64,000 nt of DNA from positions 1,426,001-1,490,000 of the forward strand of contig NZ_CP041406.1 of assembly GCF_014905135.1 (NCBI RefSeq). The letters run 5' to 3'. The stretch is from Sulfurimonas paralvinellae (GTDB taxonomy: Bacteria > Campylobacterota > Campylobacteria > Campylobacterales > Sulfurimonadaceae). Shown piece after piece: positions 40,703 to 42,081 of this stretch; positions within the stretch are counted from its first letter, which is position 1; the number at the start of each line of letters is the position of its first letter. The position numbers were made by a program, and so were the translations under genes. The notes beneath the pieces are model-generated. The model was not told the origin of the DNA. It worked only from the letters and a program-made list of their open reading frames with translations, and did no database searches.

Positions 40703-41215
40703 TCACTTCCAAATTTCATCTAATTTTTTTACAATTTTTGTCGCTTTTGAGTTGCTCACGCAGCCGCTCTCATCCAAAAGATAGTTCTCACGCAGACCTG
40801 CATTGAGACCTGCTTCAATATCTCTCTCTTTATCCCCTATCATAATAGAGTTTTGCAGATCCACATCAAACTCACCTGCCGCTTCCAAAAGCATTCCCGG
40901 TTTTGGTTTACGGCATTCACACACTCCTGATATTTCAGGGTGATGCGGGCAGTGATAGACCTTTGTAATAGTTACACCATTGTTTTTAAGCACTTCTAGC
41001 ATCCACTGCGTGAGCTTTTCAAAATCTTCTTCTGTATAAAATTTTCTGGCAATTCCAGACTGATTCGTTACAACAAAAATCAAATAACCTAAATCTTGAT
41101 AATGACGGCAAAGCTCGAAGATACCATCAATAAATTCAAAATCCTCTTGCTTGTAAAGGTACTCTTTTTCAACATTTACAACACCATCACGATCTAAAAA
41201 AAGCGCTTTTTTCAC
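40703..41215 (-). CDS. gmhB: D-glycero-beta-D-manno-heptose 1,7-bisphosphate 7-phosphatase
   Basis: HAD phosphatase removing the 7-phosphate in ADP-heptose synthesis. The 170 residues begin KKALFLDRDGVVN (catalytic D8, D10) and contain VVTNQSGIAR, the zinc site in CPHHPEISGVCECRKP, and IGDKERDIEAG. The start is GTG, immediately next to a foldback element whose arm supplies the upstream AAAGAGG ribosome site. Three CTCACGCA octamers lie within it. It continues into the asparaginase-like gene. Confidence 0.95.
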   Translation of the reverse strand: MKKALFLDRDGVVNVEKEYLYKQEDFEFIDGIFELCRHYQDLGYLIFVVTNQSGIARKFYTEEDFEKLTQWMLEVLKNNGVTITKVYHCPHHPEISGVCECRKPKPGMLLEAAGEFDVDLQNSIMIGDKERDIEAGLNAGLRENYLLDESGCVSNSKATKIVKKLDEIWK

Positions 41216-41486
41216 TAGACCTCTTTCCTAACCTCTGATACTCTTCAGTAAATTATACTATATGATAGTCAAGGCGGATGTTCTTCAGCGTAGCCATAAC
41301 TACGGTGAAGGTTATTCAACGCAGAATATCTTATTGTATAGTTTACCCGAAGGGAGGGTTAAAAAGAATCAATCTTGCACAAAAGTTTTCATCACCGTAG
41401 CTATGGCTACGCTTCAAAAAACATTTTGCACAATCTTAACTCTTTTTAGCCCTCTGAAGAGTATCAGAGGTTAGGAAAGAGGTCTA
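41216..41486. repeat. 271-bp foldback (MITE-like) element between gmhA and gmhB
   Basis: Perfect 33-bp terminal inverted repeats: 41216-41248 and 41454-41486, beginning TAGACCTCTTTCC. Inside is a second inverted pair of 21 bases with one mismatch (41288-41308 and 41392-41412), and CCGAAGGGAGG near the centre (41347). Flanking GTG/GTG may be a 3-bp target duplication. It contains no convincing ORF. The gmhA stop codon lies inside the right arm. A transposed non-autonomous element is the likeliest reading. Confidence 0.8.
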
Positions 41487-42068
41487 CACACCATCCCCAA
41501 AAGTCTCTTTTTCAATGATATCACAGATGATATGACCAATAAGAATGTGTGACTCCTGAATACGCGGTGTAGAGTTTGAAGGAACAACAAGTGCAACATC
41601 AGCCATTTTTGCCATCTCACCACCGTCACGACCGGTCAGTGCTACTGTTGTTATCCCTTTTTTCTTTGCACTCTCAAAGGCTTTAATAATATTGACAGAG
41701 TTGCCCGACGTAGAAATACCGATGAAGATATCTCCCTCTTGCCCCATCCCTTCAAGCTGACGTGAGAAGATTTGATCATATCCATAGTCATTTCCGATTG
41801 CAGTTAGGTTTGAAGTATCGGTTGTCAGTGCCAAAGATGGAATAGATGGTCTGTCAAAACCGTAACGCCCGACAAGTTCAGCAGCAATATGCTGTGCATC
41901 AGCAGCACTACCGCCATTACCGGCTAAAATTGTTTTTTTATCGCCTTTATAGAGATCGACACACATCTGTGCGACTTTTTCAATCTCATTCAAGAGGGCT
42001 TCATTTTCATAGATAGCCTGTTTGGTTTCATATGATTTTTTTATCTGATCTTTAATGTAGTTTTTCAT
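41484..42068 (-). CDS. gmhA: Sedoheptulose 7-phosphate isomerase
   Basis: Converts sedoheptulose-7-phosphate to D-manno-heptose-7-phosphate, the first heptose step. SIS-domain protein of 194 residues: AGNGGSAADAQHIAAELVG, ALTTDTSNLTAIGNDYGY, and ISTSGNSVNIIKA. The second ATG (42068) was preferred because a minus-strand TATAAT at 42082-42087 would start transcription at about 42075, past the first ATG, and GGA lies upstream of the second. Its stop codon lies in the arm of the foldback element. Zinc and catalytic histidine/glutamate positions appear intact (ESHILIGHIICD). Confidence 0.94.
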   Translation of the reverse strand: MKNYIKDQIKKSYETKQAIYENEALLNEIEKVAQMCVDLYKGDKKTILAGNGGSAADAQHIAAELVGRYGFDRPSIPSLALTTDTSNLTAIGNDYGYDQIFSRQLEGMGQEGDIFIGISTSGNSVNIIKAFESAKKKGITTVALTGRDGGEMAKMADVALVVPSNSTPRIQESHILIGHIICDIIEKETFGDGV

Positions 42069-42081
42069 AAGAGATTCCATA

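Follow-up and report, generated by a model that had tools for sequence, protein, structure and literature searches.

The window analysed here, a stretch of 64,000 nucleotides from Sulfurimonas paralvinellae (contig NZ_CP041406.1), carries a 269-bp mobile element between the gmhA and gmhB genes (positions 41217 to 41485, without assigned strand, delimited by the family-wide boundary AGAC...GTCT). That this element is a miniature inverted-repeat transposable element (MITE) moved by IS5-type transposases is strongly supported, and the data also support the view of its core as a conserved structured module, one that exchanges ends and is present in several phyla. Judging from predicted folding, the core has most likely been selected as RNA, and we regard the combined interpretation, a MITE with RNA-level selection on its core, as probable. 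A first-pass annotation of the window had recognised a foldback at this place and missed that its interior is a conserved structured core, covarying, strand-asymmetric and common to elements with different ends.

Copies, empty sites and target duplications

Six full copies of the element were found at six dispersed sites in the S. paralvinellae genome, and all six insertion sites are empty in relatives. The gmhA-gmhB spacing is 9-13 bp, with the element absent, in all 28-30 congeners with a readable junction, and at the other five sites the flanks joined minus the element align continuously or nearly so with relatives, L003 least cleanly. Further copies were present in 17 of 60 relatives, all 17 from the genus Sulfurimonas, and element length is near-constant (264-271 bp in most copies). 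Searching genome and relatives for the arm sequence and comparing empty sites, two of the checks that the first-pass annotation had proposed for its foldback, both bore out mobility.

The two terminal arms (left, 41216-41248, plus strand; right, 41454-41486, minus strand) are 33 bp long, both start with TAGACCTCTTTCC and are inverted copies without mismatch, as originally described. Within Sulfurimonas two unrelated IS5-type terminal inverted repeats (TIRs) surround one core, TIR1 (AGACYTCTTKCATAAC, with a 3-bp ANT duplication) and TIR2 (GGGCAYCTCTAAAAACC, with a 4-bp duplication). An identical 3-bp target duplication, usually AAT or ATT, was seen in 10 of 32 TIR1 copies (shuffle mean 4.7, p = 0.003) and an identical 4-bp duplication in 9 of 15 TIR2 copies (p < 5e-5). 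The family-wide 3-bp ANT duplication sets the element boundaries at AGAC...GTCT, one base inside 41216 and 41486 on each side, so that 41216-41486 comprises the 269-bp element plus one flanking T and one flanking A, and the 271-bp boundaries first given were off by one base per side. The duplication size of 3 bp that had been proposed holds for the TIR1 copies, but the GTG at this locus (CAC/CAC) is probably coincidence or erosion; the flanks of the gmhA-gmhB copy are ACT and ACA, alike at two of three bases.

Ends and probable source of the transposase

The outer 16 bp or so of the left arm (AGACCTCTTTCCTAAC) is an IS5-type end, here TIR1, and the 16-bp element end matches IS5-family insertion sequences (ISs). 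A transposase with the same terminal repeats, which the first-pass annotation had suggested looking for, was found in the IS5 family of Sulfurospirillum and Acinetobacter and as a remnant in Sulfurimonas. In the congener G016 a degenerate PF13359 transposase starts about 50 bp from a perfect TIR1 end, and on a second contig of that genome a TIR1 end lies beside a transposase tail reading KYRNRRKRFGLRFNLI. The Sulfurospirillum plasmid pSulSP carries an IS5-type transposase tail closely like that of G016, after which comes GTTATGAAAGAAGTCT, exactly complementary to the TIR1 end. On the Acinetobacter plasmid pALWED3.6 an intact IS, assigned to the IS5 family by its annotation, has AGACCTCTTGCGAAAG as its two ends and is flanked by an ATT duplication. 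TIR2 is the end of another IS5-family IS (NF033581, 173.6 bits against a cut-off of 140).

The element is non-autonomous, as the name MITE-like given to it earlier implied: its 269 bp hold no open reading frame of 100 amino acids or more, and both PF13359 and PF01609 are absent from the S. paralvinellae genome, where an autonomous partner with these ends was not found and the element is consequently an orphan. Since the genome retains no transposase, we infer the mobilisation event itself from the dispersed copies, IS ends, duplications and empty sites that are observed. The interior of the element had no likeness to the IS remnants examined, these being the only form in which the TIR1 IS of Sulfurimonas was available.

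Some related observations were made on ISs in other genomes. L182 (G020:C55) is an IS5-family element deleted internally that has both TIR2 ends and TATA on each side, and is an intermediate between IS and MITE. The complete genome of congener G011 has 31 DDE_Tnp_1 matches, many of them identical IS copies and some with frameshifts or stops, and S. paralvinellae has none. The PF01609 loci of ten non-Campylobacterota genomes that carry related elements had no ends matching those of their elements.

A conserved structured core that changes ends

The core is composed of an outer stem, hairpin A, a tiny CCC-NNN-GGG hairpin and hairpin B. At the gmhA-gmhB locus hairpin A occupies 41249-41345 (RNA-like strand plus) with its tip, AGCGTAGCCATAACTACGGTGA, at 41287-41308 on the plus strand, and hairpin B occupies 41355-41453 (RNA-like strand minus) with its tip at about 41391-41412 on the minus strand, reading TCACCGTAGCTATGGCTACGC on the plus and GCGTAGCCATAGCTACGGTGA on the minus strand, a motif kept across phyla. 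The small central hairpin CCCGAAGGG (41346-41354, without assigned strand) separates A from B within the sequence CCCGAAGGGAGGG at 41346-41358. The tips of the two hairpins are mutual inverted copies with one mismatch and correspond to the inner 21-base pair noticed in the first-pass annotation. The predicted folding energy of the foldback was -71 kcal/mol as DNA (dinucleotide shuffles -22.3 +/- 3.7, z = -13.1) and -130 kcal/mol as RNA (z = -15.1 against dinucleotide shuffles), and no shuffle came close to either fold.

Across 41 copies, 95.8% of the 3230 consensus-pair cells were paired (77% in shuffles), two-sided changes occurred at 60 of 79 consensus pairs, and 577 cells carried such changes compared with 164 in shuffles, while controls with a slid structure were 37-52% paired. 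Inner arms paired at 87-88% within a copy and at 59-67% between copies, that is, the two arms of a copy change in concert, and perfect arms therefore do not simply mark a young element as had been supposed.

In a tree built from the core only, the end type changes four times (3-4 in bootstraps), and the core of the TIR2 copy L103 is 96% identical to that of the TIR1 copy L042, which together indicate that ends and core have been exchanged. Rfam 15 gave no match above the gathering score, its weak miRNA-type matches reflecting hairpin shape only, and a literature search returned no paper that prints the tip sequence or describes this hairpin family. The core belongs to a widespread and apparently undescribed hairpin family.

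Derivatives that lack parts of the element also occur. The arms-only hairpin L108 in the S. paralvinellae genome (G000:C1:295736-295788; 51 bp, TAGACTTCCTGCAAAACTCC...) has AAT on both sides and is a derivative that lacks the core but lies at a duplicated site. L039 and L118 have internal deletions at short direct repeats that fuse hairpins A and B or cut into the arms, as expected for unstable palindromes. The idea that small arms-only palindromes represent a separate ancestor was rejected; they are better read as deletion derivatives, and L111 and L118 keep a remnant of the core. An arms-only pair in G018 sits at contig ends and may be an assembly artefact.

The tip motif in other phyla

The apical motif GCGTAGC-CRTA-GCTACGGTGA, often in multiple copies, was found inside inverted-repeat elements with differing ends in six or more phyla. 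When a 257 Gb collection was scanned for exact matches to TCACCGTAGCTAYRGCTACGC, at least 119 stretches or contigs were returned, where by our own estimate about one would be expected by chance. Among the matches listed were Campylobacterota, Bacteroidota, Planctomycetota, Bacillota, two Patescibacteria lineages, Pseudomonadota and one Gemmatimonadota record. Allowing up to two mismatches, tip copies numbered 27-33 in Flavobacteriales bins, 31 in one Planctomycetota bin and 15 each in a Marinilabiliaceae and a Staskawiczbacteria bin, and the reversed motif, used as a control, gave 0 copies. Elements outside the Campylobacterota are mostly 160-195 bp long with the motif central and inverted-repeat ends differing between groups, and flanking inverted repeats exceeded the 99th percentile of random sites at 38 of 42 such sites.

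Tip matches, some of them weak, were present in just 8 of 249 high-quality Campylobacterota genomes, a patchy distribution as for mobile DNA. The tip motif had no matches in viral contigs, by which spread through viruses was rejected, and plasmids gave no element-length match. At L189/L201 and at the Flavobacteriales loci L193, L194 and L202, further palindromic repeats lie near core elements and contain CAAGGC.../...AACGCAG motifs like those of hairpin A (for example GATGCAAGGCG...GCAACGCAGCAG upstream of L201), which suggests that Bacteroidota may have a related family of A type.

Strand-asymmetric folding

Hairpin B folded better on the minus strand in all 41 Sulfurimonas copies and hairpin A on the plus strand in 38 of 41, and the terminal arms alone had no comparable strand bias. 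Outside the Campylobacterota the GCGTAGC...GGTGA strand folded better than its complement in 45 of 46 windows, usually by many kcal/mol, and many of these windows become near-continuous rods through G-U pairs on the better strand. When the tip was swapped for a neutral loop the same strand remained better by energy in 44 of the 46. Strand-biased folding in nearly every copy and phylum, which the arms do not share, points to selection on RNA. As A and B have opposite orientation, a transcript from either direction would hold one RNA-like hairpin. Two features expected of a functional RNA, covariation above controls and strand-specific folding, were found.

Several results weigh against this interpretation. 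When expressed as shuffle z-scores the strand bias outside the Campylobacterota falls to 34 of 46 windows, and many of the windows in the strand test are copies of one family and not independent. G-U versus A-C in the consensus pairs alone fails to single out the minus strand for hairpin B, and a single invariant column pair accounts for most of the plus-strand G-U excess. On the TCAC strand, moreover, many apical loops are of UNCG type (UACG, UUCG), which at the tip itself would favour the strand opposite to the RNA-like one. The strand bias could also partly reflect base-composition skew. With regard to end swapping, the well-supported branches of the core tree alone force just one change of end type, and the TIR1 IS exists within Sulfurimonas as a remnant only. 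With regard to phylum breadth, the Gemmatimonadota site lies below the percentile and has no element, and is to be discounted; several of the phylum records are metagenome bins, some with a single copy, and bins can be contaminated, although for the main cases the differing ends and the many copies seen in several bins speak against contamination.

Alternative explanations

Hairpins can arise and persist through template switching between inverted repeats (PMC8794818), a process that could also keep arms matched without selection, so that pairing alone is no proof of function. On this basis the element might be an ordinary MITE in which only the ends matter, the structure has no role and arm pairing is kept by template switching during replication. 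The concerted change of arms within copies fits such an account, as do the arms-only deletion derivatives, of which the one flanked by AAT in the same genome indicates that a duplicated site can be occupied without the core. Template switching, however, gives no strand asymmetry, which is seen in A and B and not comparably in the arms, and it leaves unexplained both the near-constant length and the conservation of a 21-nt tip in different phyla and with different ends; we consider this account unlikely. The core could instead work as DNA: one strand would form a hairpin or cruciform while being replicated, and a host or transposon protein aiding movement would bind it. Conservation of the tip sequence beyond pairing, the patchy distribution typical of mobile DNA and the predicted stability as single-stranded DNA are compatible with a DNA role, but strand asymmetry that arises from G-U pairing is characteristic of RNA and arms-only derivatives are likewise at duplicated sites, which makes this a still more doubtful explanation.

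Two further alternatives have very little probability. Movement of a REP/REPIN-type palindrome by a RAYT (Y1 tyrosine) transposase would account for a palindromic, intergenic repeat with GTAG in its tip; the long terminal inverted repeats are, however, identical to DDE-type IS5 ends and accompanied by 3- or 4-bp target duplications, and the GTAG lies inside the stem and not at its foot, so this origin is highly improbable. Least credible of all is a fixed, non-mobile structured RNA of the gmhA-gmhB operon. The strong covariation would be in line with it, but the element-free 9-13 bp junctions of 28-30 congeners and the five further dispersed copies are not, and the empty sites refute it at this locus. 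A conserved site combined with RNA covariation had been named in the first-pass annotation as what would speak against a transposable element; the site is not conserved, whereas RNA-like covariation is present.

Neighbouring genes and a possible mechanism

The gmhB-like gene (40703-41215, minus strand) has a GTG start at 41215 that adjoins the left end of the element, and the final codons and stop of gmhA (41484-42080, minus strand) lie at its right end, which contributes the TAG stop (41484-41486). Among 48 copies, transcription of the neighbouring gene led away from the element in 37 of 46 cases on the A side and in 23 of 43 on the B side (p = 0.012). At five loci (L001, L002, L003, L004 and L025) an element end is located 0-3 nt before a start codon, and at such start-abutting copies, several of them in the S. 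paralvinellae genome, the end of the element, rich in purines (GAAAGAGG or GAAAGAAG), occupies the position of the native ribosome binding site. With the whole element in the mRNA, the position of the ribosome binding site would be locked in the outer stem, and stem cleavage, as by RNase III in Correia elements, would change that outcome. TATAAT-like boxes that could form an outward promoter in the left arm were present in some copies and not conserved, and a scan for them gave no excess.

The placement at start codons, the stem-locked site and the analogy with RNase III cleavage are the basis of a working mechanism. The element itself was most probably moved by an IS5-family transposase supplied in trans from an IS that duplicates a 3-bp ANT target. 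Its cargo consists of hairpins A and B, both long and imperfect, with the arms closing the structure, and this cargo is most likely under selection. Host transcription through the element in either direction would yield one correctly oriented hairpin, which may act in cis as a stable and probably nuclease-processed module that makes insertions tolerable inside operons and before genes. Such a cis-acting tolerance module is a possibility that we put forward with considerable reserve.

Comparison with known systems

Bacterial MITEs include the Correia elements of Neisseria, whose transcripts are cut by RNase III, ERIC, the QMITEs of Coxiella, which yield small RNAs, and Chunjie (reviewed in PMC10969869). 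Like these, the present element is gene-free, intergenic and within 100-300 bp, with terminal inverted repeats, short target duplications and transcripts predicted to fold strongly; they are known from one or a few genera, with their own ends, whereas here the core is common to different IS ends in several phyla and ends are swapped within one genus. With IS5-family ISs that make ANT duplications, such as that of pALWED3.6, it shares a terminal AGACYTCTTKC... and the 3-bp ANT duplication, but the Sulfurimonas element has no transposase and its interior is unlike the IS remnants examined. REP/REPIN elements and their RAYTs involve GTAG-tagged palindromes (PMC3733652). The element resembles them as a short palindromic intergenic repeat containing GTAG, and differs from them, with their GTAG at the stem foot and no target duplication, in its DDE-transposase marks and in having GTAG inside the stem. 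A conserved RNA structure tied to transposons is also a property of HEARO/IsrB RNA and IS110 bridge RNA, which are structured RNAs carried by mobile elements; unlike these, the core has no linked protein gene or Rfam match and hitchhikes with unrelated ends.

The core may represent a phylum-crossing class of selfish structured RNA cassette, a long hairpin with GARGCGUAGC-CRUA-GCUACGGUGAGG that repeatedly gains new transposon ends. The RNA core would then be the selected lineage and the ends interchangeable vehicles, and the Campylobacterota would pack two hairpins oppositely so that either strand yields one. We propose this tentatively, though as a serious possibility. Bacterial MITEs are usually viewed as decayed IS remnants with an unimportant interior; here it is the interior that is conserved and the ends that change. 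If the RNA interpretation is true, elements with different ends share a structured RNA that is widespread but went unannotated because of this dispersal, and the spread and tolerance of bacterial MITEs would become testable with one compact motif.
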